Shown: positions 37 to 36,640 of the stretch, piece by piece
Layout: each line of letters opens with the position of its first letter
Numbering within the stretch: position 1 is the stretch's first letter
From: Syntrophales bacterium
GTDB taxonomy: Bacteria; Desulfobacterota; Syntrophia; Syntrophales; CG2-30-49-12
Reading direction: 5' to 3'
Assembly (NCBI GenBank): GCA_030018935.1
Contig: JASEGZ010000012.1
Span: 1-42,019 of the forward strand
DNA length: 42,019 nt
Translations under genes and position numbers: made by a program
The notes under the pieces: model-generated
Database searches by the model: none
Seen by the model: only the letters and a program-made list of their open reading frames with translations
Told to the model about the DNA's origin: nothing

Positions 37-90
37 CCATTGTTTTGCTTGCAGCGTATCAAACTGACTTTGGAAAACGAACCAAACAGA

Positions 91-10272: not shown

Positions 10273-10584
10273 CTATTTTTCAAATATTTTTAAACTCAAC
10301 AACCGAGCGCCGTAAATGACTCGCATAATAACTACCCTTAACCCGTCAATTCTAAAGATAGTTCTGTAATTGCCATAGATAATATGCCGATATTCTTTTC
10401 CTAATTCCCGTGATTCAGGGATAACCGGACACCGCAAAGGAAATTGTTCTAATGAATCAATTTGACGTTCTATTTCCTTAACTAATTTAGCTGCCGCAGC
10501 CTTGTTGTCAGATGCGATGTATTGGAAAATCTCCTGTATGTCCGATTCAGCAATTGCAGTAATCTCAACCCGATATTTTTGCAC
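10273..10584 (-). CDS. RelE/ParE-family toxin
   Basis: Toxin of a type II pair, 103 residues. YRVEITAIAESDIQEIFQYIASDN, then QIDSLEQFPLRCPVIPESRELGKEYRHIIYGNYRTIFRIDG and VIMRVIYGARLL, is the classic ParE/RelE-fold pattern (N-terminal helical hairpin, FPxRCP, YR.IIYGNYRxIFR). ParE members poison gyrase and RelE members cut mRNA at the ribosome; which applies here cannot be read from sequence. The start overlaps the antitoxin end by 20 bp, so the two are translationally coupled. The pair sits inside the formate dehydrogenase operon in the same direction, next to an attC-like site, suggesting arrival as a gene cassette. Confidence 0.88.
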   Translation of the reverse strand: MQKYRVEITAIAESDIQEIFQYIASDNKAAAAKLVKEIERQIDSLEQFPLRCPVIPESRELGKEYRHIIYGNYRTIFRIDGLRVVIMRVIYGARLLSLKIFEK

Positions 10585-10849
10585 TATCTTTAAACTCTTT
10601 CAAAAAGTCCCGTGCTTCTCGGACTCGACCCTCCTTCAGATCGGCTTCTGCTTCAGCCAACAGCATACCAAGATTCAACGATTTTAACTTTTTCTCAAAA
10701 ACCTCTACGTCCAGTAAAACAGCATCAGGCTTGCCATTGACAGTAACAATAATGGGGCGGCCAGTATGGTGCATTTGTCTAAAAATTTCATTCGTCTTTT
10801 TTTTCAGGTCCGAAACCGATTTTATGTCTTCGGAAATACTTAGAGACAT
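10565..10849 (-). CDS. Phd/YefM-family antitoxin
   Basis: Antitoxin of 94 residues for the overlapping ParE/RelE toxin. SISEDIKSVSDLKKKTNEIFRQMHHTGRPIIVTVNGKPDAVLLDVEVFEKK is the Phd/YefM DNA-binding domain (helix, then the RPIIVTVNGKPDAVLLD strand motif). The C-terminal 40 residues, rich in Ala, Glu and Arg, would wrap the toxin. AAAGGA lies 11 bases before the ATG. The family normally represses its own promoter; a good sigma-70 promoter is present directly upstream. Confidence 0.88.
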   Translation of the reverse strand: MSLSISEDIKSVSDLKKKTNEIFRQMHHTGRPIIVTVNGKPDAVLLDVEVFEKKLKSLNLGMLLAEAEADLKEGRVREARDFLKEFKDSAKISG

Positions 10850-15794: not shown

Positions 15795-16216
15795 GGAAAT
15801 AATTTTCTTCTGGCTCCTGGATTCTGACTTCTGGCTTCTGACTCCTGAGTAGTTGCACAGCCATAATAAATATATTACAGCATTTGTCTCATGGCGAGAA
15901 ATTCCTCCCCTCATGACTGTTTCATTGACGAATGTTTCCGTAACGGCTATATATATAAAAAATGTTCCCCCATTACCACCAATTAATGCTTTTATACGAT
16001 ATGAGACCTTTAAAAACTGAAAATTGGCTTCGTGAAGGGCGAATCAAAGATTTTTTCGGGGAGGGGGGCTCTGCCATCGCAGCGAAGCGCCCGCCAGGGC
16101 AACTGTTTGAAGGCGAAGCCTGAGTTTTGCCCTAACAGCGAAACTAAATGATGCATAATCGTCAAAAGATTTTGAGCCCTTGTGAAGTCAATTTTCAAAG
16201 GTCTCGATATGAAAAG
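15795..16216. other. Intergenic region with GTCAGAA repeats and a MITE
   Basis: The 422 bp between the DUF362 gene (minus) and recC (plus) contain degenerate CTTCTGACTCC units (15805-15850) and the MITE at 16003-16205. No RNA gene or ORF is convincing here. Confidence 0.5.
16003..16205. mobile_element. MITE-like element (203 bp) with GATAT target-site duplication
   Basis: The ends are GAGACCTTT and AAAGGTCTC, extended inward by imperfect inverted repeats with the shared core GAAAATTG. GATAT flanks both sides (15998-16002 and 16206-16210). A second, shorter and inverted copy at 39123-39264 shares a 24-bp identical block centred on CGAATCAAAGATTTTTTC and the block TGCCATCGCAGCGAAGCG. There is no coding capacity. 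It sits 12 bp before the recC start and must have displaced its original upstream region. Confidence 0.8.
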
Positions 16217-19200
16217 ATGGAAATGCCAATGGCGGGTTTAAGACTTTTTATCAGCAACCGCCTGGAGATGCTGGCGGAAAAACTGGCTGAGACTCTCAGG
16301 ATACCCCTTTCATCTCCCTTTGAGAAAGAAGTGATTGTGGTTCAGAGCAAAGGAATGGAGCGCTGGATTTCCCTGGAACTTGCCCGGCATCATGGTGTCT
16401 GTGCGAATTACAGATTTCCCTTTCCCAGAACAGCGGTGAATGAAATCTTTAGCGCCGTCATTCCGGAATTTCGGGAGGATTCGTCCTTTGTACCCGAGAT
16501 TATGAGATGGAAAGTGATGAAGCTCCTCCCCTCCTGTATCACGAAGCAGGGTTTTGAAAACCTCAAGAATTATCTCGAAGGTGACGGGACAAATCTGAAG
16601 CGATTCCAGCTTGCAGAGCGGATTGCTGCTGTCTTTGATCAGTATCTGATCTTTCGTCCGGAGATGATAATTGAATGGGAAAAGGGAAAGATTGGAAAAA
16701 ACGATGAGCGCTGGCAGGCTGAACTCTGGCGAGAGCTGGTAAGTCCCAAAGAAGTCTCTCACCCTGCGGCACACAGAGAGTCCTTCCTCCAGAAGATTCA
16801 GGAATCATCCACGACAATAACGAATCTTCCTCAGCGGATTTCTCTCTTCGGCATATCATTTCTGCCCTATTTTCACCTAGAGATATTTGAGGAAATATCC
16901 CGGCACATTGAGGTCAACCTCTTCCTCATAAACCCTTCCCGTGAGTTCTGGGGGTATATCCGATCAGACCGGGAGATGGTCAGGAGATTAGAAAGGGGCA
17001 GAGCCGGGAAGGGGCAGGAAAAATTTTTCCCGGAAGAGTTATACCTCGAAAAGGGAAATAGCCTCCTGGCCTCCCTGGGAACGATGGGCCGGGGGTTTTT
17101 TGCCTTCATCTTAGACTTCCATGCCGAGGAAGAAGACCTCTTTTGGGAACCGGGGGAGGAGAACATTCTTACCTCCATCCAGTCCGATATTCTAAACCTC
17201 CGGGACAGGGGCCAGGAGGGAGACAATAAAACTACTATCGCCCCAAACGACAGATCAATACAGATACACTCCTGTCACAGTCCCATGCGTGAGGTCGAGG
17301 CGCTCTACGACAACCTCCTCGCGATGTTTGAGGAGGACCAACAACTGCTACCCGGAGATATCCTCGTCATGGCGCCGGATATTGAGACGTATGCCCCCTT
17401 TATCCAGGCGGTCTTCGACATGCCCGGGGAGGTCCCTTCGATGAGAGGCGAATCCCGGCGGATACCCTTCAGCATTGCTGACAGGAGTACCAGAAGAGAA
17501 AGCACGATAATTGACGCTTTTCTCGAAATCCTTGATCTCTACGGGAGCCGCTTCGGGGCATCGCAAGTCCTTTCAGTTCTTGAAATATCGTCGGTACGGG
17601 AAAAATTCGGCCTAGCGGAAGAGGATCTGGAACTGATACGGCGCTGGGTAGCAGAAATCAGGATACGGTGGGGTCTTGACGGGGAAAACCGCCGTCAGAT
17701 GGGACTCCCTGAGTTTTCGGAAAACACATGGAGAGCCGGTCTAAATCGGCTCCTCCTCGGCTATGCCATGCCCGGAAAGAACGAGCATCTGTTCAACGGA
17801 ATCCTCCCTTACGATCATATTGAGGGGAGTGAGACCCTTGTTCTGGGAAAGTTCATCGCATATACGGATCAGCTCTTTTATCATGTCACCTCACTCGGCC
17901 GCTCGCGTACCCTCGACGAATGGTCGCAAACCCTTACCGGCCTCCTCAACAGCTTCTTCCTCACCGATGAAACGACAGAAAGAGAAATGCAGGTGCTACG
18001 GGGGGCCATCCGGAATCTCGCGGATCAACAGGTGGTGTCTGGTTTCGATGAGGTGGTGGGAGTGGAAGTCATCAAGTCGCACCTGAGAAATCATGTGGAA
18101 AAAGAGGGTTTTGGCTTTGGTTTCATGACCGGTGGCGTCCAATTCTGCACCATGCTTCCCATGCGGAGCATACCCTTCAAGATAATCTACCTTCTCGGGA
18201 TGAATAACGAAGATTATCCACGACGGTCAAAGGCCCTCGGATTTGATTTAATGGCAAGATATCCCAGACCAGGGGATCGGTCACGACGAATGGACGACCG
18301 TTACCTCTTCCTCGAAGCGATTCTCTCCGCCAGAAAGAGGTTAGTGGTAAGTTACATCGGACAGAGTATTGAAGACAACAGCCTCATCCCGCCGTCCGTC
18401 CTAATAAGTGAACTTCTCGATTACATTGAACAGGGCTTTGCACTGCCCGGGGAGAAGATTTCGGACTATCTGGTAACGATGCATCGCCTCCAGGCCTTCA
18501 ACCCGGAATATTTCAGAGGGAATGACAAACTGTTCAGCTATTCCGATGAGAACTTCAGGGCAGCCCGCTGCTGCCTGGAACCACGTGAGGAAACAACAAA
18601 ATTCATCACCACAAAGCTTTCTGAACCCTCTGAAGAATGGAAGACCGTTGAGGTGGTTAATTTAGTCAACTTCTTCAGAAACCCGGTCAGATTTTTCCTG
18701 AAAAGACGTTTGCAAATGAGCCTTGAGGAGGAGTACTCGACCCTCCTCGAGGAACGGGAATCTTTTGATGTAAAGGGCCTCGAAAAATACACCCTTGAAC
18801 AAATCCTTGTGGAAAAAGGGCTTTCCGAAAGTGCAATGAGGGGAGGGGACTTATTCCCCATCATTAGGGCATCAGGACAACTTCCCCACGGTAAAGTTGG
18901 CGAATACCGCTACAACAGCCTGACCGAGGGGGTACGTGAATTTGTCAACAGGGTACAACGATACCTTGCGGGAGGCAGGCTTTGCCCTCTCGATGTCAAT
19001 CTGAATATTGCCAGATTCAAGCTGAGGGGACAGATAGACTCCATCTTTGCTGACGGGTTGATCCACTGGCGCTATGGAAAGTTAAATGTCAGAGATCACC
19101 TGAGGATATGGATCCATCACTTAGTTCTGAGCAGTATGGCGCCCCGGGAATATCCCCTGCGAAGTATCCTCCTGGGACAGGATGGGGCATGGGAGTATGC

Positions 19201-19522
19201 ACCGGTGGAAAAATATAAAGAAACACTTGAAGTTCTCATGCATAAGTACTGGGATGGATTGTCAAATCCTCTCAAATTTTTCCCTGAGACCTCCTGGGCG
19301 TATGCCTGGCAGATCTTCAAAAGGGGGAAAAACCGAGAGGATGGGATGCGTTCTGCAAGAAAGGTCTGGATGGGTTCCGCAGATGAACGCGGGAAACCAG
19401 GCGAATGCGAGGATCCCGGTTACCAGGTTTGCTTTGGGAAGACCAATCCTATTGATGCAGAATTTCAACAGTTAGCAGAAGAGATTTTCGGAACACTCTT
19501 TATGTACCAGGAGAAACTCTGA
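16217..19522 (+). CDS. recC: Exodeoxyribonuclease V gamma subunit RecC
   Basis: Chi-recognition and scaffold subunit of the RecBCD helicase-nuclease, about 1101 residues, as in E. coli (1122). The start LRLFISNRLEMLAEKLAE, then VVQSKGMERWISLELARHHGVCANYRFPFP, is the RecC signature. LFGISFLPYFHLEIFEEISRHIEVNLFLINPSREFWG and SCHSPMREVEALYDNLL are further conserved blocks of the helicase-like domains, and YLLGMNNEDYPRR follows in the second half. The ORF is open from 16148, but that stretch lies in the MITE, so ATG 16217, 16223 or 16229 is the real start. recB and recD, usually adjacent, are absent: the upstream gene is DUF362 on the other strand and the downstream gene is unrelated. Confidence 0.92.
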   Translation: MEMPMAGLRLFISNRLEMLAEKLAETLRIPLSSPFEKEVIVVQSKGMERWISLELARHHGVCANYRFPFPRTAVNEIFSAVIPEFREDSSFVPEIMRWKVMKLLPSCITKQGFENLKNYLEGDGTNLKRFQLAERIAAVFDQYLIFRPEMIIEWEKGKIGKNDERWQAELWRELVSPKEVSHPAAHRESFLQKIQESSTTITNLPQRISLFGISFLPYFHLEIFEEISRHIEVNLFLINPSREFWGYIRSDREMVRRLERGRAGKGQEKFFPEELYLEKGNSLLASLGTMGRGFFAFILDFHAEEEDLFWEPGEENILTSIQSDILNLRDRGQEGDNKTTIAPNDRSIQIHSCHSPMREVEALYDNLLAMFEEDQQLLPGDILVMAPDIETYAPFIQAVFDMPGEVPSMRGESRRIPFSIADRSTRRESTIIDAFLEILDLYGSRFGASQVLSVLEISSVREKFGLAEEDLELIRRWVAEIRIRWGLDGENRRQMGLPEFSENTWRAGLNRLLLGYAMPGKNEHLFNGILPYDHIEGSETLVLGKFIAYTDQLFYHVTSLGRSRTLDEWSQTLTGLLNSFFLTDETTEREMQVLRGAIRNLADQQVVSGFDEVVGVEVIKSHLRNHVEKEGFGFGFMTGGVQFCTMLPMRSIPFKIIYLLGMNNEDYPRRSKALGFDLMARYPRPGDRSRRMDDRYLFLEAILSARKRLVVSYIGQSIEDNSLIPPSVLISELLDYIEQGFALPGEKISDYLVTMHRLQAFNPEYFRGNDKLFSYSDENFRAARCCLEPREETTKFITTKLSEPSEEWKTVEVVNLVNFFRNPVRFFLKRRLQMSLEEEYSTLLEERESFDVKGLEKYTLEQILVEKGLSESAMRGGDLFPIIRASGQLPHGKVGEYRYNSLTEGVREFVNRVQRYLAGGRLCPLDVNLNIARFKLRGQIDSIFADGLIHWRYGKLNVRDHLRIWIHHLVLSSMAPREYPLRSILLGQDGAWEYAPVEKYKETLEVLMHKYWDGLSNPLKFFPETSWAYAWQIFKRGKNREDGMRSARKVWMGSADERGKPGECEDPGYQVCFGKTNPIDAEFQQLAEEIFGTLFMYQEKL

Positions 19523-23450: not shown

Positions 23451-26400
23451 TCACGTCTTTAGAATTGCCACCATGGGAACTATTACCTCCCACGGGCTTG
23501 CCCCGCCGTGGAGGTATCGGGGCTCCTCCTTGCCCTTCCTGAATCCCGGGTTTTCTAAGAAACCATGGTCGGAGAAGAGGAAGATGAGGGAACCTCTGGG
23601 GATTCTGTCCAGATAGTTTTTCACGGAGACTTCTATGTTTACACATATCTCTCTAAAGAGTGTGATAAGGTCATCCTTTGATTGGTGGAGTTTATTGTCT
23701 ATAAAGCCGAATTTCACTATCTTTACATCTTTTTCTAATTCGATCTCTTCATAAGCGTCGGCAAGGGAAGACCCCGCATCCCTGATATTGCTGTATGAGG
23801 CCCTTCTCTCAGAGACCAGATCTAACATGGCGGTAGAGGCAAGTAGAGACCCAATCTGAATCTCTGTTGTCGTGGGAAGGAGCGCCCAGAGGGGTATCTC
23901 TTCCAGTATTCTGTAATTGAGGGATTTAGTGATAAAGGTATTCTCTTTAATGTACTCCCACAGGTCCCACCGCATTCCATCGAGGAGGATGAAGTATCCC
24001 CTGCCCTTCCCCAGTGAGTCTTTGAACCTCTGAAAGAGAGTATCAGGGATATCTCTGATGTGGAGAGGATGCTTCCCCCTTTTTTCCTTCTTTTCCTCCA
24101 TGGCTTCCCCCAGGGGAAGATAGAACTTTTCAAAGGCGCCTCCCCACCTTAAGGAGATATCTTTCAGTGCCTTTTTCTTCCGCTGGAGGTTTACATCATC
24201 CAGCAGCCCCAGTTGATTCAAGGAGTGAGAGGTACAATGGTAATCGTAAAAGATACCCCAGAGGGAAGAGCGGTAGGCATCCTCCCAGAAGAGAAAATCT
24301 CCATCTTCCCGGGGCATACCGGAAAGATTCCTCAGGGAGGTCTCCAGGCCGATGAGATGTCTCAATGTCTGGAAAATTTCCTCTTTTTTCATCCTCTTGG
24401 GACTTTTGGTCTCCCTCTGGCGAAGGATAAGATCTTCCATCACCTTCCTCCCTATCCTGGATGGTTCCCTCTCCACCCTTTTGATGAGGTCTCTCAGCGC
24501 CCGGACCGCCAGAGAGGGGAAGACCACCTCCTTTTCGAGGAACCTTAAGTAATCCAGTGGTTCTCTTTTATCAATAAGCCCGAAGAGGGCAAGGTCTTTC
24601 TTTTTCTCCTGCAAAAACTTCTCTGCATCCTCTAACAAGCCGCCGGCCTCTTCCTCCCTGTTGACCATGACACATTCCGCCGCCTGACAGAGGAGTTCGT
24701 GGTGGGATGCTATCTCCCTTGCAATCCTTGCCATCTCGCCGGCTTCTCTCCCCAGGACGCTGCCGATGAAGGGGAGAAGCTCTTTCTCCTCTGTCTCCTG
24801 GGTCTTTCCCCAGAGGGAGAGGAAGAGAACGCAATTAAACTCCCGCTCACCCAATTCTTTAAAGAGACCGGTAAGCTCCGGATACCTCTCCTGAATAACC
24901 TCCCAAAGGGCGGGAAATGAAGAGGGGTAGCCGGCAGCCCTTAGAGGGCCCCTTTTTGCACTCGTAACCCTGATGTAGGTCTCTTCCCTGAGATCCTCCC
25001 CACCCTGGAGCCATTCAAGAAAGATATTAAAAAGCCTCTCCTTAAGAAAACTCCTTTCCACCGTATTCTCATAGAACTCATCTATATCCCTCGAGACCAT
25101 GATCACCTTTCCAGAAAAGGCATCGTTGATGGCCCTGATGGAATCACCACCTGAGAGATTCTCCAACTCCTTCAGAGATGCCTCAGGGTTATCTGTCAGC
25201 CGGGATATAGGAAAATCGAGTAAGCGGTTTATCTTCTCTGCCACCCCGGCCTTTCCGGTCTCCTTTAAACCCGCGGCATACGAGACAAGTCTTTCCCTGT
25301 TCGCCCCCTCCTTAAATGCCAGGAGGTACTCTCTTATCCCCTGATCAATGGTGGATTCGATGGCATGGAGTCCCGGTAGTTCCCGCCTGTCTCCGAGGTG
25401 AAATCCACACCCGCATATCGGCCTCCTGTGAAGGCCCTCCATGGTGAAATCTGAACATCTCGTGGAAAAAACCTCCGCCAGCATCCTTTCTACCTTTACC
25501 CTGTCGTTCTTTACCGAGACGTATTCCACCCTCGAGAAATTAGAGAGAATCGTGTATCTCAGGGATTCTTTCACCCTGCTGTAGGGGTGAATCCCTTCCG
25601 GTGAGGTGGCCCTCTGGTGTTCCTTTTGATACTGCAGGACATACCCCTGAAGGAAGTTATGGAAAAGCCTCCCTAAATTTTCCATATAACCTTCTTCCAG
25701 ATACGGGCAACGGGCAATGAGATATTCTCTTATATCGGAGAGTTGAAGTCTGATGGTTTCGTATTCCTTTCCCTCAGGTATCGCCAGCTCCGTGTGGTTG
25801 ACGTAACTATACATGAACAGATATCGCTCCAGATCATCCGTGAAAAAACTCTTGGCGGCCTCAAACCTAAAAAAGCTCTTCCCTATAAAGGGGTGGTTCC
25901 TGCTCTCCCTTAAAAACCTCTCTATCCCTTCCCTGGGCGGATATGAAGTCTTAACCTCCTCAAAGAGGAGCCTCAGGTCGTCCAGGTTCTTCTTCAGTCC
26001 TATTAGGTCAAAGCTTGCCAGGGCCTTATATTCTGAAGCCCGGCCGATTTTTTCCTGGAGATTTTCGATCTCTTCTATCATCCCCCCCTTCATCGCCACA
26101 AGCTCCCCCCATAGTTCCCTCTGGGTGAGAAGGTTAAGCTCCCTGTTTTTGTACTTCTTAGGGATAAAGGGGAGTGAGACCAGCTCTTTCTGATACTCCA
26201 GGGGAAGGACCTCACCCTTCGATACCTCGTCTATCTTTTGGAGGTTGTAGATACCGATCTCCTCCGGGTTCTTCCTCTTTCCCCCGGCATAGGGGATAAT
26301 ATGGCCGGAGAAGATCAGGGTAAGGGTCAGGAGTTCAAACTGGATTCGGGAGAGCCCCAGATCCCCCTTCCTGAGCCTCCGGTAGATATCTTCGAGGGGG

Positions 26401-28748
26401 CGCCTCCCTTCCCCGGATACCTCGACCAGTTCCCGGAACCTCTCCACCGGGACACTCTTGGAAGGGTCAACAACAACCTCAAAGCCCTTGGGAGTGCCCT
26501 TTGCCACCTTCATCGGAAGGAGAAACCCCTCCACTATCCTCTTAAGCCCGTGGCGGCCCCCCTTATCTATAACTATCTCTCCCTTCTTCAGAAAGTCCTC
26601 CACCACCTCCTCGAGTTGATCCCTTGTAGTAAAGGAGGTATAGGGGGCTATCTCTGTATGCCTGGGGTACCTTGCCTCCAGCAGAGATTCGGCAAAGCTG
26701 GCCAGAAGATCCTGAAGTGCATTAAATTTCAGGGATTCCCGGAGATGTTCCTCACCAGAGGGGATGGAAAAGAGGGTCCCCGTCTGGTATGCCTCCAGGA
26801 ATCTCTCCTTTACCAGCCTCTTTTCATGAGAGAGGAGTCCCTGGATGAATGCACTGATCTCCTTACCCCTTTCCGTGGCATCTTCCCTGTATTTCTCCAG
26901 GAGGAGGAGGTGGGCAAGGGCCTCCTTGAGCGCCTCTTTTTCGGGGGTCTGGGGAAGCCAGAAGAGGCAATAGAAGGCGTTCTTTTCCCTGAGATGGGGC
27001 AGGATGACATTCTGAAGATGCGATCTCTCATCATCCAGACGATGGGTAGTTCCGGTAACGACGGCAAAATCGGCTTCCGTCTCCTGAAGCTCCCGGATCA
27101 TCTCCTCCAACCGCTCAGGCGTTATTCTGTCTATCTGTTCCAGGAGAAAGATCCCCTCCCTCGGGGTGGACTGCCAGAGAAGTTTTACCTTCGTTTTTTC
27201 AGATACTTGATACTCTTTGAGGGGAAGGCGGGGGTCATCCAACAACTCTTTTAGTTTCGTGAAGAGCCTCAGATCATCCTCAAAGAATGACCCCACCATA
27301 TACTCTGTAGATCTCCTGACGAGGAGACTTATATCCGCTTCCAGGCTGATGTAGAAGTGATCGGCAAGGGGGTCGGCTCCTCTCTCCACCGAGATGTATG
27401 CCCCTTCTCTGAGAAGCCTTTCCGCAATATCCCTGACGTAGTGGTAATTTATCGAGGACTCCAGTTCCGTTATCCTGTGCAGCAGCATCTCCGCTATATC
27501 CCTGATGGTTCTCTTCTTCTTAACAGGAGAGATGGCCATCAGGATCAGGACCTTCAGTACTCTGAAGGCGAGGTCTAAGTCTTCCCTGTTGGTAAAGATA
27601 TTCCCCATCTCATCTTCGTAATACTTATAGACCACCTCGGTGAAGGGATTGAGTTCAACCCTCTCTTTTATCCTCACCCGGAAGTGATCAAATATCCGCT
27701 CCGGGGTGAGGAGGTGATCACAGGATAGATGGAGCATTCCTTCAATATTCCGGCCCGGGTCCCCCTTGAGCTGGTAATGGATAAAATCAACGACACCCCG
27801 GTGCTGTGAAAAGATGGGTTTCAGATTGTCGAGGAAGGATACGGTGGCGGGATGTACCGGGTATAAGGAGAGAAACCTCTCCTCTGTGATCCCGAGATGG
27901 GGGAAGTACTTCTTAAATGTGCGGTAGAGCCCGGAGATTCCCTCCCTTTTCGCGGCCTTTATCCTGATGAGCCTTCTTCCGATCAACTCTTCTATGTGGG
28001 TACCGGTAAGAAAAAGCCTTAGAGGGTAACGGTCTTTGATCTTGTTGAATGCCTCCTGGGTGGTCTCACCGGTATCCTCGATGCTCTCCTGGAGGGTGGC
28101 AATAACCCACATCGGCAACGATGAGGCCCTCTCGCCCAGGTATTGAAGGAAGCGGATGTCCTCATTGAAACTCCTGCTTTCAGGCTTTGATCTCAAGAAC
28201 TCGGATAACTCATCTATCAGGAGAATAAGGCCGGGTGCTCCGTTGACCTTGAGTTTCTCCTCGATCTTTCCGTAAAACTCCTTCCTCTCAGGGATTCCCT
28301 CTTCCGGGTCAAAGGGGGGATGGTTGTATCTCCTCTGGTAGGAGCTGATGATTGACCTCGCGATGATTTCTTCCAGGTTGGTCCTGCTGCTGTATTCCAC
28401 CAGGGATACCTCTGTCGTGAGATATCCTCTGGGGCAGAGGACCTCATATAACCCCGTTAAATCCGGTTCCTGGGCGAGGAGGGGCTGCCATGCCTCACGG
28501 TAGTTAAAAAGGAGGCTGATAATCGTGAGGAAGTGGGACTTACCCGTACCAAAATTCCCCTCAAGGAAGACACCTCCCCCCTCCCCCTCCCTGATCTTAC
28601 CCATGATGGCCTTAAGGTTGGCATGGGCCTCCGAGGTAAGGATAAAGTCCTCCGCCAGTTTCGTCTTTAAGTTCTGATCATAGATATCAGAGAGCTGGAT
28701 TACGGTTTTAACCTCAGGAAGATCTATTATATCCCTTAGAGACTCCAT
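23451..28748 (-). CDS. Giant BREX-like ATPase (DUF6079/BrxC/PglY-type) fused to C-terminal PglZ domain
   Basis: A 1765-residue cytoplasmic protein. The N-terminal P-loop ATPase has Walker A GNFGTGKS (64-71) and Walker B LLIDELSE (D179, E180), with the VKTVIQLSD start and architecture of the DUF6079/BrxC/PglY ATPases of BREX and Pgl phage-defence systems. The middle part is helical, with a CGCG pair near residue 1113. The last 180 residues carry the alkaline-phosphatase-superfamily motifs of PglZ: ILLDGMRWD (D1590), LPTTTEI, IDNKLHQ, FLFSDHGF (D1727, H1728) and LHGGASPWEVIVP (H1747). In known BREX loci ATPase and PglZ are separate genes. The start overlaps the TPR stop (TAATG), so the two genes are coupled. 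No PglX methyltransferase, BrxL, BrxA or BrxB is present in the window. Defence function is inference. Confidence 0.82.
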   Translation of the reverse strand: MESLRDIIDLPEVKTVIQLSDIYDQNLKTKLAEDFILTSEAHANLKAIMGKIREGEGGGVFLEGNFGTGKSHFLTIISLLFNYREAWQPLLAQEPDLTGLYEVLCPRGYLTTEVSLVEYSSRTNLEEIIARSIISSYQRRYNHPPFDPEEGIPERKEFYGKIEEKLKVNGAPGLILLIDELSEFLRSKPESRSFNEDIRFLQYLGERASSLPMWVIATLQESIEDTGETTQEAFNKIKDRYPLRLFLTGTHIEELIGRRLIRIKAAKREGISGLYRTFKKYFPHLGITEERFLSLYPVHPATVSFLDNLKPIFSQHRGVVDFIHYQLKGDPGRNIEGMLHLSCDHLLTPERIFDHFRVRIKERVELNPFTEVVYKYYEDEMGNIFTNREDLDLAFRVLKVLILMAISPVKKKRTIRDIAEMLLHRITELESSINYHYVRDIAERLLREGAYISVERGADPLADHFYISLEADISLLVRRSTEYMVGSFFEDDLRLFTKLKELLDDPRLPLKEYQVSEKTKVKLLWQSTPREGIFLLEQIDRITPERLEEMIRELQETEADFAVVTGTTHRLDDERSHLQNVILPHLREKNAFYCLFWLPQTPEKEALKEALAHLLLLEKYREDATERGKEISAFIQGLLSHEKRLVKERFLEAYQTGTLFSIPSGEEHLRESLKFNALQDLLASFAESLLEARYPRHTEIAPYTSFTTRDQLEEVVEDFLKKGEIVIDKGGRHGLKRIVEGFLLPMKVAKGTPKGFEVVVDPSKSVPVERFRELVEVSGEGRRPLEDIYRRLRKGDLGLSRIQFELLTLTLIFSGHIIPYAGGKRKNPEEIGIYNLQKIDEVSKGEVLPLEYQKELVSLPFIPKKYKNRELNLLTQRELWGELVAMKGGMIEEIENLQEKIGRASEYKALASFDLIGLKKNLDDLRLLFEEVKTSYPPREGIERFLRESRNHPFIGKSFFRFEAAKSFFTDDLERYLFMYSYVNHTELAIPEGKEYETIRLQLSDIREYLIARCPYLEEGYMENLGRLFHNFLQGYVLQYQKEHQRATSPEGIHPYSRVKESLRYTILSNFSRVEYVSVKNDRVKVERMLAEVFSTRCSDFTMEGLHRRPICGCGFHLGDRRELPGLHAIESTIDQGIREYLLAFKEGANRERLVSYAAGLKETGKAGVAEKINRLLDFPISRLTDNPEASLKELENLSGGDSIRAINDAFSGKVIMVSRDIDEFYENTVERSFLKERLFNIFLEWLQGGEDLREETYIRVTSAKRGPLRAAGYPSSFPALWEVIQERYPELTGLFKELGEREFNCVLFLSLWGKTQETEEKELLPFIGSVLGREAGEMARIAREIASHHELLCQAAECVMVNREEEAGGLLEDAEKFLQEKKKDLALFGLIDKREPLDYLRFLEKEVVFPSLAVRALRDLIKRVEREPSRIGRKVMEDLILRQRETKSPKRMKKEEIFQTLRHLIGLETSLRNLSGMPREDGDFLFWEDAYRSSLWGIFYDYHCTSHSLNQLGLLDDVNLQRKKKALKDISLRWGGAFEKFYLPLGEAMEEKKEKRGKHPLHIRDIPDTLFQRFKDSLGKGRGYFILLDGMRWDLWEYIKENTFITKSLNYRILEEIPLWALLPTTTEIQIGSLLASTAMLDLVSERRASYSNIRDAGSSLADAYEEIELEKDVKIVKFGFIDNKLHQSKDDLITLFREICVNIEVSVKNYLDRIPRGSLIFLFSDHGFLENPGFRKGKEEPRYLHGGASPWEVIVPMVAILKT

Positions 28749-29752
28749 TACCCTTCCCTCTTCTCAAGTTCCTTTTCGGTCTTTTTCAGAAGTCCCCAGA
28801 GGGATTTCTCCCCGGGGTGCCTCTCTATGGCCTTCTTTAAGACCCTCTTGAACTCCTCCCAGTGCCCCCCTTTCTTAACGGCAGCTACAAGGGAAGACCT
28901 GATGTAAAAGTCCTTCGGTTCCTCTGTGAATGGGCCCGCGAGGGTTTCCACTACCTTTGACGGCATATCGAGTTTTGCATAGCAGTAACCGAGGTGGCTG
29001 AGGATGAAGCTATTATTGGGAGAGAGCGCGAGGGCCTTCTCAAATTCAGCTATTGCCTCTCCATACTTACCTGCCCTCTTGAGATTTAAACCGATCTCGG
29101 AATGGAGATGGGGGTTATTGGCAGCGGTGGATACCTTCATCATAGCCTTCATTTCCCTTTCGACCTCCGCAGGTTCCCTGTTCTTTGACCTCAACCTCAA
29201 AAGCTCCTTGTAAATGAAGGCATCCCCAGGGGCGAGATCGTGGATCCTCTGGTAGACATTGGCCGCCTCCTGGTACTCTCCTTCCCTTTCCAGTATCTGA
29301 GCCCTGTACCTGAGGATGATAACATTGGCAGGGTTCTCTATTAACTCCTCCCTGATGAGGTCTCTGGCCTCATCAAACCTTTCAAGGCCGATCAATGTTT
29401 TAATGACCCTGGAGGTTACGTATCCTGTCCTCTTTATCCGAGATGCCGCCTCAAAATGCTCGAGGGCATTACCGTATTCCCTCTTATCCAGATAGATCTC
29501 TCCCATCACTTTATGGGCATTCATGTTAGTAGGCACCTTTTTTAGGGCATCTAATACCAGGGTCTTTGCCTCTTCTAATTTTCCATCAAGACGCAGGCAG
29601 TCTGCAAGCTCTATGGTAAGAAGGGGCTCATGAGGGAAATCCTCCATAGCCCTTGTCAGTTCTTCCATGGCCTCCTTCAGATTCTTTCCCTTCTTCAGGT
29701 TACCTACGATCCTGAGTTTTGTCCTTAGGTATTGATCCTCGTCTCTTCCCAT
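28748..29752 (-). CDS. Tetratricopeptide repeat protein
   Basis: Soluble TPR protein of 334 residues, probably a protein-protein adaptor. Repeating 34-residue units are visible along its length: KNLKEAMEELTRAMEDFPHEPLLTIELADCLRLDGKLEEAKTLV, then ...AHKVMGEIYLDKREYGNALEHFEAASRI, YRAQILEREGEYQEAANVYQRIHDLAPGD, SEIGLNLKRAGKYGEAIAEFEKALALSPNN. AAAGGAG abuts an ATG at 29770 with no spacer, so the ATG at 29752 with TAGAGG nine bases away is the more normal start. The stop codon shares one base with the start of the ATPase-PglZ gene, so the two products are made together and probably bind each other. TPR genes are not standard BREX components. Confidence 0.85.
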   Translation of the reverse strand: MGRDEDQYLRTKLRIVGNLKKGKNLKEAMEELTRAMEDFPHEPLLTIELADCLRLDGKLEEAKTLVLDALKKVPTNMNAHKVMGEIYLDKREYGNALEHFEAASRIKRTGYVTSRVIKTLIGLERFDEARDLIREELIENPANVIILRYRAQILEREGEYQEAANVYQRIHDLAPGDAFIYKELLRLRSKNREPAEVEREMKAMMKVSTAANNPHLHSEIGLNLKRAGKYGEAIAEFEKALALSPNNSFILSHLGYCYAKLDMPSKVVETLAGPFTEEPKDFYIRSSLVAAVKKGGHWEEFKRVLKKAIERHPGEKSLWGLLKKTEKELEKREG

Positions 29753-29916
29753 ATTTACAGCCTCTACCATCTCCTTTCAGAAAAATCAAGATTATTGGGA
29801 GGTTAAGATAAGGAGATATAGATCTTCCTACCCTGGGGAAATAGGTAATTGAAAAATGCAAAATGAAACCCATTATGACGATGGGAAAATAAGGGGGAAA
29901 TAGGGGACGTCCATTT

Positions 29917-31780: not shown

Positions 31781-32026
31781 TTGAAAAGAATGATCAAACG
31801 GTCTATTGATCGAATTGAAATCGAGGAAGCAGTTTTATCAGGAGAGATTATCGAAGAATATCCCGATGACAAGTATTCTCCGAGTTGTCTCATTTATGGA
31901 AAGACTAAAGCTGGTAGAAATCTTCATGTTCAAGTTTCACTCCCTCCGTCAGTTATCGTTATTACAGCATATGAACCGGATGAGACTGAATGGATAGATT
32001 ATAGAATTAGGAGGAAAAAGGGATGA
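31781..32026 (+). CDS. DUF4258 family protein (toxin-like), start uncertain
   Basis: Small protein, 81 residues from a TTG. IEIEEAVLSGEIIEEYPDDKYSPSCLIYGKTKAGRNLHVQVSLPPSVIVITAYEPDETEW is DUF4258, often paired with YgiT/MqsA-type or HTH antitoxins and presumed to be a RelE-like RNase. Family similarity continues upstream in frame (GEYRFSDHALKRM, from about 31754), and the frame is open back to 31700, but it contains no ATG, GTG or TTG before 31781. GAGGAG at 31752-31757 is not placed for any good start. Either an unusual start is used or the start codon has been lost. The stop overlaps the antitoxin start (ATGA). Confidence 0.7.
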   Translation: MKRMIKRSIDRIEIEEAVLSGEIIEEYPDDKYSPSCLIYGKTKAGRNLHVQVSLPPSVIVITAYEPDETEWIDYRIRRKKG

Positions 32027-32256
32027 AATGTGTTTTTTGTGGCGGTGAAACAAAGCCCATGTTGGTGACTTTTAGCTATGAAGAGGGAAACAGGTATTTT
32101 TTTGTGGAGCATGTCCCGGCTGAGGTTTGCGCTCGCTGCGGAGAAAAGACCTATTCTCCTGATGTTACCGATGAGTTATTGGAATTTGCAAAAAACAAAT
32201 TTAAGCCTGTTAAAAAACTGGAAGTCCCTGTATTTGATTTTGCTGAAAGTTGTTGA
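32023..32256 (+). CDS. YgiT-type (MqsA-like) zinc-finger antitoxin
   Basis: Protein of 77 residues with CVFCGG and CARCGE, the zinc-binding pairs of the YgiT/MqsA N-terminal domain (MKCVFCGGETKP...FFVEHVPAEVCARCGEKTYSPDVTDELLEFA). The C-terminal HTH of full MqsA is missing, as in the short YgiT group. Translationally coupled to the DUF4258 gene. First toxin-antitoxin-like cassette of the array; an attC-like hairpin follows 17 bp after the stop. Confidence 0.85.
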   Translation: MKCVFCGGETKPMLVTFSYEEGNRYFFVEHVPAEVCARCGEKTYSPDVTDELLEFAKNKFKPVKKLEVPVFDFAESC

Positions 32257-32273
32257 TGTTGGCGACCATCGGC

Positions 32274-32339
32274 GCATAACACAGGCCAAAAGACTACCAT
32301 CCAAATGCTTCGCACTTCTTTTGGCCTTGAACGTTAGCC
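32274..32339 (+). repeat. attC-like site 1 of the array
   Basis: GCATAAC (32274-32280), then AGGCCAAAAG (32283-32292) pairing exactly with CTTTTGGCCT (32318-32327), then GTTAGCC (32333-32339). Box order and length (66 bp) agree with short attC sites. The loop text is nearly the same as in sites at 3335 and 33048. Confidence 0.65.
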
Positions 32340-32406
32340 GCCATTGTCGTTAAACCCTAGACTCAGAAGTGTAGTTAGACAAGCATAGGAAGGAGGAAAG
32401 ACAAAG

Positions 32407-32649
32407 ATGAATCCGCTTTTGCAACGTATTTCCGTTAACCCAAATGTTTGCTTTGGCAAACCTTGCATTCGTGGCACACGAATATGGGTGTCGCTACTTC
32501 TTGATTTCTTAGCAAACGGGATGAGCATTGAGGCGATTCTTGCAGAATATCCTCATCTGACGGAGGAGGATATTCGGGCTGCCATTGCTTACGGAGCGGA
32601 AATGGCCCGAGAGCGATATGTTGAGATCCCTGTCGAGGCAACAGGATGA
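32407..32649 (+). CDS. DUF433 family antitoxin
   Basis: Protein of 80 residues of the DUF433 family: RISVNPNVCFGKPCIRGTRIWVSLLLDFLANGMSIEAILAEYPHLTEEDIRAAIAYGAEMARER, with the typical GKPCIRGTRI motif and helix-turn-helix-like second half. AAGGAGG lies 13 bases before the ATG. Members pair with DUF5615 PIN-like toxins, and the toxin gene follows with a four-base overlap. Confidence 0.9.
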   Translation: MNPLLQRISVNPNVCFGKPCIRGTRIWVSLLLDFLANGMSIEAILAEYPHLTEEDIRAAIAYGAEMARERYVEIPVEATG

Positions 32650-33053
32650 AGTTCAAACTCGATGAGAACCTTGGAACCAGAACTCAGCATCTTTTTCTTG
32701 AGACAGGACATGATATTCAAACAATCCGTGACGAAAATCTACAAGGATGTTCAGACCAGCATATCTATGAAGTGTGTTGTGCTGAACAACGTTGTCTGGT
32801 GACTCTGGACTTGGATTTTTCGGATGTGACGTGTTTCCCACCAGCTCAAGCGAACGGTATAGTTGTCATTCGAGTTCCCCGTAATCCAAGTCTTGCTTTG
32901 TTGGAACAACTGGTCCGTCAGTTTCTGCAAACACTTACCCAAATGCCGGTAGAGAAAAAGCTGTGGATTGTCGAAATTGCTCGAATTCGTGTGCGTCAAT
33001 TAGAAGATGACGAAGAGTCAGGGGTTAAAGAAAAGGCAGACAACGGCGGCTAA
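32646..33053 (+). CDS. DUF5615 PIN-like toxin
   Basis: Putative RNase toxin of 135 residues. MKFKLDENLGTRTQHLFLETGHDI carries the first acidic residues (DEN), and LVTLDLDFSDV the second cluster (DxDF) of the PIN-like active site; GIVVIRVPR follows. The ATG overlaps the antitoxin stop (ATGA). The stop codon TAA lies inside the left box of the next attC-like site (GGCTAAC), as often seen in integron cassettes. Confidence 0.9.
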   Translation: MKFKLDENLGTRTQHLFLETGHDIQTIRDENLQGCSDQHIYEVCCAEQRCLVTLDLDFSDVTCFPPAQANGIVVIRVPRNPSLALLEQLVRQFLQTLTQMPVEKKLWIVEIARIRVRQLEDDEESGVKEKADNGG

Positions 33054-33113
33054 CACCGGCCAAAAGGTAGACATGCAAATGCTTCGCACTTCTTTTAGCC
33101 TTAAACGTTAGCC
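33048..33113 (+). repeat. attC-like site 2 of the array
   Basis: GGCTAAC (33048-33054) and GTTAGCC (33107-33113) are exact inverted repeats. Inside, GGCCAAAAG (33058-33066) pairs with CTTTTAGCC (33092-33100) with one G-T type mismatch. Length 66 bp, as in site 1, with almost the same loop (GACATGCAAATGCTTCGCAC). Confidence 0.7.
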
Positions 33114-33144
33114 AAAATAGCAAACCGGAAGGGGGAAAATTCTT

Positions 33145-33354
33145 ATGAAAACACTCTCTGGAACATACAAAGGGAAGCGGGTTGTCGAATTGTTCGAGGA
33201 CATCGACCTTCCCAAAGACATAGGGGTACTGGTCGTAATTCCGGAAGAAGATGATGAAAGGGAATTACGCAACCAGCTTCAGATCGCTGCAGAAGGTGTC
33301 TTCGCAAAACTTTGGGATACCAAGGAGGACGAGGTGTGGAATGAGTATTTATAG
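33145..33354 (+). CDS. Small antitoxin-like protein upstream of MazF
   Basis: Protein of 69 residues: SGTYKGKRVVELFEDIDLPKDIGVLVVIPEEDD, then a charged C-terminal helix. The N-terminal beta-rich half resembles AbrB-like or DUF104-type antitoxins. I do not recognise the exact family. AAGGGGG lies about nine bases before the ATG. Its end overlaps the MazF start by 14 bp, the usual antitoxin-toxin order. Confidence 0.7.
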   Translation: MKTLSGTYKGKRVVELFEDIDLPKDIGVLVVIPEEDDERELRNQLQIAAEGVFAKLWDTKEDEVWNEYL

Positions 33355-33690
33355 GCAACGAGACATTGTCCTAGTACCCTTCCCGTTCTCTGACCTTTCT
33401 ATGCAGAAGGTCCGCCCTGTCCTTATTCTGTCGAACGATGCGTATAACCAGCAATCGTCCGATATTGTGGTTTGTGGCCTGACACCAATCTCAGACCAGC
33501 ACCTTATTCGATCATTGTTGATGTCGCAGATGTTGAACAGCCAGGAACACTGAGACATAAGAGCAGGATTAAGGCCGATGCGATTGCTTCGCTGGAGCAG
33601 TCGATCATCGTCAAACAGATTGCTCGCCTGAAACTCTCGGTCTTCAGGAAGATTGTCACAGAGATCGAAGATTTGATCAAGACGTCTTGA
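33341..33690 (+). pseudogene. MazF/PemK-family toxin, frameshifted
   Basis: Endoribonuclease toxin broken by an apparent 1-base loss. Frame 1 from ATG 33341 reads MSIYRQRDIVLVPFPFSDL, then KVRPVLILSNDAYN and DIVVCGLT, the MazF core. After about 33485 the family sequence goes on in another frame as NLRPAPYSIIVDVADVEQPG, HKSRIKADAIASLEQSIIVKQIARL, ending at 33690. Frame 1 ends early at about 33551. Together the two pieces give a normal length of about 116 residues. It may be a true inactivation or a sequencing error. Confidence 0.85.
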
Positions 33691-34100: not shown

Positions 34101-34170
34101 TAATAAGTATAGGACATTAAAGGAGGAATTTTACCTGGATTTTAACAAGGTTGAGAAGAGGAGTACAGGT

Positions 34171-35010
34171 ATGGTCATTGATGTCCATGTACACATCTGT
34201 CCTCCCGAGGTACGAAACGAAAGGGAGAGATTTCTCGATGGTGAGGCGGAGTTTGCCGCTCTATATAAAGGCCCGCAGTCCAGGCTTGCGGGCGCGGGAG
34301 AGGTCGTCGCCATGATGGACAGGGAGGGTGTTGATAAGGCCGTTGTCTTCGGTTTTCCCTGGGATCACGAGGAATTTTTAAGATTTAACAACGACTATGT
34401 GTTACAGGCCGCGGCCCGTTTTCAGGGGCGTCTTATCCCCTTCGTTTGCGTAAAAGCGGACCACCCCGGAGCATCCTCGGAAGTTGAACGATGCCTCGGA
34501 TCAGGGGCCAGGGGAGTAGGCGAGCTGGCTTTTTATACGAACGGGTTGGATGAGGCAGCGGTAGAGGCATTAAAGCCTCTAACCGATATTTGTCATGAAG
34601 CACAATGTCCGATACTGTTGCACACCAATGAGCCTGTCGGCCACCACTATCCAGGCAAAAGCCCCATGACCCTTGCCCAACTCTACCGGCTCCTGAAAAT
34701 ATACGACAAAACCACCTGGATTTTGGCTCACCTGGGTGGTGGCCTGCCCTTCTACTGCTATATGAAGAAGGAAGTGCGGGAGGTAGTATCCAGGTGCTGG
34801 TTTGACACGGCGGCCCTCCCTTATCTGTACCGCCCTCAGGTATTGAAAGTTTTTGCGGATGCCATAGGGGCAGAGAAGCTGCTGTTCGGCTCAGACTTTC
34901 CCCTCATCCTCTTTTCAAGATATAAAAACGAATTCTTACAGGCCGGATTAAACCAGGAAGAACTGGAGATGATCCTGGGCAAGAATGCCCAATCATTATT
35001 ATCAATATAG
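34171..35010 (+). CDS. Amidohydrolase family metal-dependent hydrolase
   Basis: TIM-barrel hydrolase (Amidohydro_2 type) of 279 residues. It starts MVIDVHVHICPPE with the HxH metal motif; HTNEPVGHHYPGK, ILAHLGGGLPF and LLFGSDFPL give the further metal ligands (His, His, Asp). DREGVDKAVVFGFPW is typical of decarboxylase-like members. Substrate unknown. GAGGAG eight bases before ATG 34171 decides the start over an upstream TTG at 34066. It stands 85 bp before the histidine kinase in the same direction. Confidence 0.85.
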   Translation: MVIDVHVHICPPEVRNERERFLDGEAEFAALYKGPQSRLAGAGEVVAMMDREGVDKAVVFGFPWDHEEFLRFNNDYVLQAAARFQGRLIPFVCVKADHPGASSEVERCLGSGARGVGELAFYTNGLDEAAVEALKPLTDICHEAQCPILLHTNEPVGHHYPGKSPMTLAQLYRLLKIYDKTTWILAHLGGGLPFYCYMKKEVREVVSRCWFDTAALPYLYRPQVLKVFADAIGAEKLLFGSDFPLILFSRYKNEFLQAGLNQEELEMILGKNAQSLLSI

Positions 35011-35095
35011 GGGTCGGGGGGTATAGGAGCCAGAATTTTCCCTTAATCCTGAATCCTGACTGAGTCGTTACGCGACAATTTGTAAGGGGTTTTAT

Positions 35096-36640
35096 ATGAC
35101 CGTTCGTACTCGCCTGATGATCGTTACCATCCTCGGACTGGCCGTCACCATGGCCATCTGGGGTTGGATTCAGCTAAGGGCGCTGGATAATATATTGACT
35201 GACCAGCAGGTCAAGAGGCTCGATGATGTTGCAGAAACAGTCAGTACGTACTATCAACATTTTCCCACCCGTCGTGGTTTGTCAGTCCTGGACAGAACTT
35301 TAAAAGAACAGGTACAGATGGATATCCGTTTAGCCAGGATAGATATTTTTTCCGTTGTCAGTGACGATATCGAATATATCGCCGGCGCCAGCCGTGTTCA
35401 CTATAACTGGTCCGAGACTTTAGTGGGTTCAGTTGCTGAGGAACTAAAAGCCCGGTATATTAAATTAAATATTGAGGGCGGTCCGGCGCTGGGCATGTTA
35501 TATCCCGCACTCCTATCAGAGAAAGATAAGAAAAATCGAGTGGTCGTCGGCGTGATTGCCTTTTCTCAGTCCAGTACAGAGATCTTGAACAGAGCTCAGC
35601 GCCTTCTCATGCTCAGTAGCGCAGGGCTTTTATTTTTCATTTTGCTCGTTTTGTTCATAAGTTACGGCTGGATTATCGGACATCCCCTGAGAAGCATCAT
35701 TAGTGCAATTGATGAATTCCAGACAGGAAAGTATGACAGGCGGATTCGCCTGGCCCGGAGGGATGAATGGGGACAACTGGCGGATCATTTCAATTCAATG
35801 GCCGATAAAATTGAACAGGTGCTTGCCCGGGATCAGGAACTTAACCTCTCCCTGGAAGAGAGGGTACAGGAAGCCACTCATAATGTTGTACAGTTGCAAA
35901 AGGAGGTCAACCAGCTCCAGCAGCTTACGGCGCTTGGATATTTAACGGCTACCCTGGCGCACGATCTTGGCACACCCCTTCATTCCATTGCCGGAATGGC
36001 GAGGCTCCTGTTAGAGGGCGATGAATGGCCTCCTGATGTAGGTCGTAAATTGGAACTTATTGTTCAGCAGACACAGCGGTTGGACACGGTGATCCAGAAT
36101 GTACGCCGTGCCACGCGTCTGCCGGAACCGCATTTCGAAACCATCTCCATTTCCAAACTTTTAAATGAGACCCTGCCTCTCGTTGAACCCCTGACACAGA
36201 AGTCAGGTATCTGTCTCAGCGTGGATGTGGAGGTAGACACTCCCCTTCTCTACGTGGACCGGTATCGTTTCCAGATAGCCATGTTAAATCTTATCGAGAA
36301 TGCAGTGGAAGCGCTGCCCCAGGAAGGAGAAATAACTGTTTCAGCCTCTGCCCTGCCAGGTGGCAGGTTCGTTGCCACCTCTGTTCAGGATAACGGTCCC
36401 GGTATCCCTTCCGAATTGATAGAAAAAGTCTGCGAGCCCTTTTTCAGTACTCATGCCGACGAAGGGATGCGCGGTCTGGGACTGGCCATAGTAGAGGGTA
36501 TTGTCAAGGTACACGGCGGCCATCTTGAGATAAAGAGCCATCCCGATAAGGGTACAGAAGTTATTCTCTATTTTCCCGTCGTTGACGTCATGTCCGGGGA
36601 GGCGGCTCCTGACAACGTGTCCTCTTTGAGTAATCCGTAA
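35096..36640 (+). CDS. Membrane sensor histidine kinase
   Basis: Two-component sensor of 514 residues. TM1 (about 8-26), a periplasmic sensing part of about 150 residues, TM2 (about 176-197), a HAMP domain (HPLRSIISAIDEFQTGKYDRRI), then a coiled coil. HisKA has LAHDLGTPLHS with H289 as the phosphorylated residue. The ATPase domain has NLIENAVEAL (N box), DNGPGIP (G1), EPFFST and GLGLAIV (G2). AAGGGG precedes the ATG. The likely partner is the NtrC-type regulator on the opposite strand, whose gene overlaps this one tail to tail by 73 bp. Confidence 0.93.
   Translation: MTVRTRLMIVTILGLAVTMAIWGWIQLRALDNILTDQQVKRLDDVAETVSTYYQHFPTRRGLSVLDRTLKEQVQMDIRLARIDIFSVVSDDIEYIAGASRVHYNWSETLVGSVAEELKARYIKLNIEGGPALGMLYPALLSEKDKKNRVVVGVIAFSQSSTEILNRAQRLLMLSSAGLLFFILLVLFISYGWIIGHPLRSIISAIDEFQTGKYDRRIRLARRDEWGQLADHFNSMADKIEQVLARDQELNLSLEERVQEATHNVVQLQKEVNQLQQLTALGYLTATLAHDLGTPLHSIAGMARLLLEGDEWPPDVGRKLELIVQQTQRLDTVIQNVRRATRLPEPHFETISISKLLNETLPLVEPLTQKSGICLSVDVEVDTPLLYVDRYRFQIAMLNLIENAVEALPQEGEITVSASALPGGRFVATSVQDNGPGIPSELIEKVCEPFFSTHADEGMRGLGLAIVEGIVKVHGGHLEIKSHPDKGTEVILYFPVVDVMSGEAAPDNVSSLSNP

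Follow-up and report, generated by a model that had tools for sequence, protein, structure and literature searches.

The window analyzed here, a stretch of 42,019 nucleotides from a Syntrophales bacterium (assembly GCA_030018935.1, contig JASEGZ010000012.1, designated C12) that belongs to a 2.07-Mb draft genome, carries a gene in which two components of the BREX phage resistance systems, the ATPase BrxC and PglZ, are encoded as one protein, next to a gene for a TPR protein. Profile comparisons and predicted models show that this single chain combines a complete BrxC-like ATPase with a phosphodiesterase/nuclease domain of the PglZ type, the active site of which is predicted to be intact, and that it is inherited together with a dedicated TPR protein. 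We propose, at even confidence, that the two proteins constitute a DNA-processing machine in which an ATP-controlled, methylation-free nuclease would work with its TPR partner, with a leaning toward genome maintenance over mobile restriction. The locus comprises the following features.

23451-28748, minus strand: BrxC-PglZ fusion open reading frame (ORF), 1,765 amino acids, from profile, Pfam/PADLOC, and fold evidence
27759-28748, minus strand: AAA+ (ORC/Cdc6-type) ATPase domain, residues ~1 to 330
25299-27758, minus strand: remaining BrxC-like part, residues ~331 to 1150, with winged-helix, alpha+beta, winged-helix, and helical segments whose boundaries were taken from predicted secondary structure
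25407-25619, minus strand: candidate metal (zinc) site H1044+C1098+C1112+C1114, from invariance in the fusion family
24009-25298, minus strand: mostly helical linker, residues ~1151 to 1580
23454-24008, minus strand: PglZ domain, residues ~1581 to 1765, with D1590, T1628, D1684, H1688, D1727, H1728, and H1747
28748-29752, minus strand: TPR protein, 334 amino acids from the ATG at 29752 (340 amino acids from the ATG at 29770), with TPR Pfam matches to 2e-25

A preliminary description of the window, made from its sequence alone, had read the gene as an ATPase-PglZ fusion in one chain of 1,765 residues with intact catalytic motifs, and profiles, fold, and residue invariance now confirm this. The ORF is uninterrupted and occurs once in the genome. 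The comparison of its N terminus with DUF6079 and BrxC, suggested at that time, gave a match of residues 4 to 327 to DUF6079 (E value of 3e-39, Pfam) and of the N terminus to BrxC models (5e-29, PADLOC); the BrxC structure 9zdx was also matched by profile (6e-15). Furthermore, the predicted model of the N-terminal part (predicted local distance difference test [pLDDT], 88) has Acinetobacter BrxC as its top PDB match (9zll, 2.4e-12), followed by ORC/Cdc6. Since the alignment of unfused DUF6079 proteins from this phylum begins at the first position of the fusion profile and extends to position ~1149, the N-terminal two-thirds correspond to a complete BrxC-like protein and not to the ATPase domain alone. 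The ATPase motifs are a Walker A GNFGTGKS (residues 64 to 71), a Walker B LLIDE (D179 and E180), and R240. Across 62 fusions, which were picked by profile hits at both ends, a selection that favors conserved motifs, D179, E180, and R240 are invariant (62/62), as is K70 of Walker A in all 59 sequences aligned there. H1044, C1098, C1112, and C1114 are likewise invariant in 62/62 fusions and possibly form a metal (zinc) site. None of the unfused DUF6079 ORFs compared (two nearly full length, the others truncated at ~610 to 850 amino acids) contains the CxC motif.

The PglZ half was doubtful by single-sequence Pfam and NCBIfam searches alone; profile and fold searches settled its assignment. Indeed, the Pfam PglZ match lies below threshold (E value of 0.0081; 16.6 bits versus a cut-off of 25), as does the NCBIfam score. 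A profile of 35 homologs finds the PglZ structures of PorX (7pv7, 1.6e-8), through a match that starts inside the helical linker, and that of a BREX PglZ (9nv3, 2.4e-5); the predicted C-terminal fold (pLDDT, 89) has PorX as its top PDB match (7e-9), with BREX PglZ next (2e-6 and 7e-4). Profile and fold searches thus independently give the same families for both halves of the protein. We conclude from these comparisons and the predicted model that the C-terminal PglZ domain is real; the PglZ match anticipated in the preliminary description was obtained by profile and fold, not by Pfam.

Of the PglZ metal residues, D1590, D1727, H1728, and H1747 had been named correctly, but T1628, D1684, and H1688 had been overlooked and are equally invariant: all seven are conserved wherever they are aligned in the 62 fusions. 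The resulting set D-T-D-H-D-H-H is that of nucleotide pyrophosphatases, and the metal ligands expected of a PglZ protein (D, D/H, D/H, and H) and the nucleophilic Thr are all present. Such strict invariance, although the proteins are mostly only 24 to 36% identical to that of the window, indicates selection for catalysis. T1628 and H1747 align with T272 and H500 of PorX (the chain numbering of the alignment is offset by 5), residues that have been equated with T538 and H741 of Escherichia fergusonii PglZ (PMC12205998). Metal-dependent cleavage of DNA by the latter enzyme is lost in the T538A mutant and diminished in the H741A mutant (PMC12205998).

That PorX is the top match by both structure and profile brings up another reading, according to which the fusion is a regulatory phosphodiesterase: its PglZ domain would degrade cyclic or linear signaling oligonucleotides like PorX, and the ATPase and the TPR protein would form a signaling scaffold, DNA not being the substrate. 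In support, PorX and BREX PglZ alike cleave cyclic oligonucleotides (PMC12205998). We nevertheless find this reading improbable, given that in BREX, the BrxC part, including the winged-helix and alpha+beta segments, serves as a scaffold for DNA binding, that the fusion gene is repeatedly coupled to DNA helicases (see below), and that no oligonucleotide cyclase is found among the listed recurrent neighbor families.

The case for a two-protein machine also draws on the TPR partner. The TPR and fusion genes share one base in a TAATG overlap (context, ...gggTAATGgag), as had been noticed previously. Promoter and terminator scans at the locus gave scores under the shuffled mean and were not informative. 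The longest TPR ORF covers 28748-29770 on the minus strand, with 340 amino acids from the first ATG; the end placed at 29752 in the preliminary description is that of the second ATG (MGRDEDQ...), which is probably the real start because its Shine-Dalgarno spacing is better and because it fits the 333-amino-acid length of a homolog with 67% identity. The same TPR family is found upstream and on the same strand in 54 of the 68 fusion loci with enough upstream DNA, overlapping the fusion gene in 35 of the 45 loci where the two genes are direct neighbors, and all upstream copies score at an E value of ≤1.2e-39 against the family's own profile. A chance TPR neighbor was rejected, as only 4 of 483 background genes match the TPR profile, two of these being displaced true partners. 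Moreover, the TPR and fusion trees are concordant (r of 0.95; 0 of 2,000 permutations), an agreement between sequences that shows co-inheritance and not, in itself, binding.

Whether the TPR gene is always adjacent had been put forward as a check; it usually is, but not always. In two genomes checked, G226 and G259, no TPR gene lies beside the fusion, and a single ortholog is encoded elsewhere (52 and 56% identical, respectively, to the TPR protein of G191). In G226, it lies directly downstream of genes that we take, from their sequences, to be ispG-, proS-, and relA-like, and in G259, it adjoins what are presumably hrcA/grpE-like genes. The TPR protein is thus a candidate obligate partner of the fusion and a natural candidate for a control or targeting subunit. 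Two loci differ in this region. At L067:3169-4413, a tyrosine recombinase gene stands 27 nucleotides upstream of the fusion in place of the TPR gene, and at L010:4993-9606, a shorter fusion (1,537 amino acids) has no upstream TPR gene. The latter is preceded by ORFs that we read as toxin-antitoxin-like and followed by presumably SEC-C-like and RecQ-like ORFs.

The fusion is not the peculiarity of one locus that it had appeared to be. When GTDB genomes were scanned with the family profile, 115 relatives in over ten phyla were returned, and the 80 best of them were retained. They come from Bacillota, Desulfobacterota/Deltaproteobacteria, Nitrospirota, Spirochaetota, Acidobacteriota, Planctomycetes, and Fibrobacter, as well as from WOR-3, Stahlbacteria, Poribacteria, Riflebacteria, Bacteroidota, and Actinomycetota. 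Among the carriers of both genes is a named strain, Moorella stamsii DSM 26217 (L117). Homologs with the same fusion, which we had been advised to collect, are therefore common: both domains stand on one chain in 59 of 64 complete ORFs, a proportion that favors fused forms because the scan used ATPase motifs but retained the best full-length matches. A natural split was seen at L120:9995-15513, where an ATPase part of 1,352 amino acids and a PglZ part of 469 amino acids are encoded by adjacent ORFs after a TPR gene; either a genuine split or a frameshift would explain this arrangement. The fusion tree largely follows the phyla, with 16 label changes for a minimum of 10 and a shuffled mean of 34.8, a count in which the NCBI labels of "Deltaproteobacteria" bins are unreliable. 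No fusion was found in the plasmids, phages, or viral contigs searched, in which plasmids gave only the ATPase domain of DUF6079-type proteins, and a search of a viral structure library returned nothing at an E value of ≤0.001. An origin on a phage or a plasmid is thus unsupported in these collections.

This conservation bears on the idea that the locus is a decayed remnant, left after an ordinary BREX system had lost PglX and its other parts. In favor of this idea, BrxC and PglZ are the two universal parts of BREX. The fusion and its pairing with the TPR gene are old, however, and have been kept over more than 10 phyla with invariant active sites; PglX is not recurrent at the loci; and the family has an invariant His/Cys set of its own, the CxC motif of which is missing from the unfused relatives compared. 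On this pattern, we reject the remnant, which we consider extremely improbable.

We return to the proposed maintenance machine with the genes that surround it in other genomes. The recurrent neighbors other than TPR genes are DNA helicases, the remainder being ordinary metabolic genes. RecQ occurs in 13 loci, usually between the TPR gene and the fusion (in one clade), an SNF2 family occurs in a cluster of seven loci, and RecD2 lies directly 3' of the fusion in five spirochete loci. Hence, the TPR protein, described initially as the only coupled partner, is not the only one elsewhere, where RecQ or RecD2 may be coupled as well. Helicases aside, the loci are not enriched in defense genes among the neighbors of homologs, so the check for defense islands proposed initially came out negative, and DNA methyltransferases are absent from the 25 most common neighbor families, among which one- or two-time occurrences would go unlisted.

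Those data must be set against a second explanation, namely a minimal antiphage or antiplasmid system without a methylation mark. Its BrxC part would sense an infection-specific state of DNA, such as replication or packaging intermediates or damaged ends, and its PglZ domain would cut, the TPR protein being a sensor or a safety catch. We regard this as plausible and as a close rival of the maintenance reading, though less likely than not. Both enzymes are homologous to BREX effectors, and to our knowledge, all BrxC-plus-PglZ combinations studied so far are defensive. Several further observations also weigh against a maintenance function. The SNF2 neighbors found beside several loci score well against the defense helicases DpdE and ZorD, and the helicase type follows the clade, which points to few independent recruitments. 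In the class to which the window belongs, just 4 of 155 genomes carry the fusion, the congener G001 lacks it, and the closest relative of the window fusion (67% identity) comes from another class, so the window copy was probably acquired horizontally, as a defense system would be. The position of the locus at a synteny break relative to G001, beside toxin-antitoxin-like genes and with a Mokosh-like gene 20 kb away, likewise speaks for defense. Finally, the fusion is retained in 4/4 good genomes of one family and in 6/8 of another, but these figures come from just 5 and 8 genomes, respectively, and most of the 8 are contaminated or incomplete bins. Defense is in turn disfavored by the lack of enrichment in defense genes, by the presence of the fusion in nearly all genomes of some families, by the retention of an unlinked TPR partner among housekeeping genes, by the phylum-following tree, and by the failure to find the fusion in the plasmids, phages, and viral contigs searched. 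Because of the near-complete, vertical retention in some families, the housekeeping surroundings, and the unlinked partner, we lean slightly to the non-defense side, i.e., to chromosomal maintenance or quality control.

Our working model of this maintenance machine extends beyond the domain assignments by inference. The BrxC part, probably dimeric, would bind duplex DNA in an ATP-dependent manner, and its ATP state, together with the TPR protein acting as a scaffold, sensor, or brake, would govern the tethered PglZ domain. The latter would nick or cut DNA through a two-metal site with T1628 as the nucleophile, while the DNA may be unwound or moved by a helicase in many lineages (RecQ, SNF2, or RecD2), and no methylation mark would be involved. 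The covalent link between BrxC and PglZ would stand in for the BrxB bridge of BREX. This last point is suggested by the fact that the fusion lacks both BrxB and the strand-rich domain of PglZ that binds it: the linker (residues 1151 to 1580) has just two predicted strands (1217 to 1221 and 1258 to 1262), and we judge from this prediction that it contains no counterpart of the multistranded N-terminal, BrxB-binding domain of BREX PglZ. A natural BrxC-PglZ fusion also fits a known interaction, since BrxC:BrxB:PglZ complexes form (PMC13326643).

How the separate parts of BREX jointly stop phages is unsolved. A natural single chain of BrxC and PglZ that dispenses with a methyltransferase reduces the ATPase-nuclease engine to two proteins that are easily purified and mutated, and the existence of the fusion argues, on evolutionary grounds, that BrxC and PglZ operate as a single unit. 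More tentatively, we suggest that the core formed by BrxC and PglZ in BREX has a second, ancient form, a vertically inherited single-chain nuclease for genome maintenance whose TPR regulator is obligate and whose helicases (RecQ, RecD2, or SNF2) are interchangeable, so that both forms might go back to a common DNA-processing engine for which methylation-dependent defense is not intrinsic. If the maintenance role is true, a core widely seen as an immune module would have a non-defense relative.

In the window itself, the synteny break relative to G001 (positions 29920 and 34170) falls at the 3' end of the upstream aminotransferase gene. In G001, amidohydrolase and histidine kinase genes directly follow the aminotransferase gene, and they are inverted in the window, at 34170-36578. 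Small toxin-antitoxin-like genes lie at 31781-33553 (plus strand), encoding DUF4258, DUF433 overlapping a DUF5615/PIN-like protein, and PemK/MazF, and a ParE toxin and Phd/YefM antitoxin pair lies at 10273-10849 (minus strand). The gene at 40-3246 (plus strand) encodes a 1,068-amino-acid SF1 helicase (AAA_11/AAA_12) with a PLD domain (PADLOC MkoA, 3.6e-60; MkoC, 9e-35); by these matches, it is the Mokosh-like defense gene mentioned above. A RecC gene (Exonuc_V_gamma, 6.8e-101) occupies 16148-19522 on the plus strand, opposite to and 4 kb from the fusion, and is also present in G001, which has no fusion.

The label "BREX-like" was right as homology and wrong as membership. A BrxC/PglY-type ATPase is present, and PglZ is present as a domain of the same chain. 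As had been stated, the window ORFs that we scanned yielded neither a DNA methyltransferase nor a BREX gene, the sole methyltransferase among them being UbiE-like (5293-6033). PglX/BrxX and the phosphorothioation genes of type 4 were therefore missing from these ORFs. In 21 fusion genomes, no gene exceeded the cut-off set for the PglX model of type 1 BREX (the genome-wide search did not extend to type 2 and 3 methyltransferases or to Dnd/Ssp genes); the best match in the window genome is a 59-bit N6-methyltransferase on another contig, for a cut-off of 500. The homologous loci are thus not accompanied by PglX, although constant company would have been expected of a known BREX type. BrxA- and BrxB-like proteins were not found by Pfam and PADLOC among the window ORFs or the listed neighbor families, from which very divergent, inactive STAND forms could escape. 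With no PglX, BrxA, BrxB, or BrxL at the locus, the fusion is by definition not BREX. Nor does it belong to the DUF499 BREX-related (BR) systems, as its ATPase matches DUF6079, its locus has no methyltransferase, and only some clades have a helicase. No HerA/FtsK translocase, which is universal in the HerA/FtsK-centered capture systems, was detected among the scanned window ORFs or the listed recurrent neighbor families, and the surroundings are not those of a defense island, consisting of helicases and metabolic genes in homologs and including Mokosh-like and toxin-antitoxin-like genes in the window. No NCBIfam or PADLOC model covers the fusion as one unit, and our search of the open-access literature found it described nowhere. 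According to the main text of a 2026 BREX survey, BrxC and PglZ co-occur outside BREX and unassigned hits were discarded; we found no description of a BrxC-PglZ fusion in it (PMC12839542).

Among known systems, the core of type 1 BREX (BrxC, BrxB, and PglZ) resembles the fusion in its homologous ATPase and PglZ and in the catalytic residues of the PglZ nuclease (PMC12205998). In BREX, BrxC dimerizes and binds double-stranded DNA in an ATP-dependent manner, and BrxB bridges it to PglZ (PMC13326643). Unlike type 1 BREX, the fusion is a single chain devoid of BrxB, the BrxB-binding N-terminal domain of PglZ, PglX/BrxX, BrxA, and BrxL, and it possesses a TPR partner and an additional invariant His/Cys set. 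Type 3 BREX and the DUF499-centered systems (BR types 1 to 3 and Hma) share with it a BrxC-like/DUF499 ATPase and a helicase, as well as PglZ in BR type 3, but they have an N6-methyltransferase and a separate PglZ, whereas the ATPase of the fusion is of the DUF6079/BrxC type. The HerA/FtsK-centered, BREX-related capture systems, which the main text of the survey describes as outside BREX, combine a DUF6079 ATPase and PglZ without PglX; as presented there, they have seven separate components, with HerA/FtsK, DUF4007, and STAND, and neither a fusion nor a TPR protein (PMC12839542). In PorX, too, a helical region precedes a PglZ domain that has the same Thr and His (T272 and H500), but this regulator of type IX secretion carries a receiver domain and no ATPase. 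Together, these comparisons identify the fusion as a variant of the BrxC/PglZ kind that stands outside BREX.

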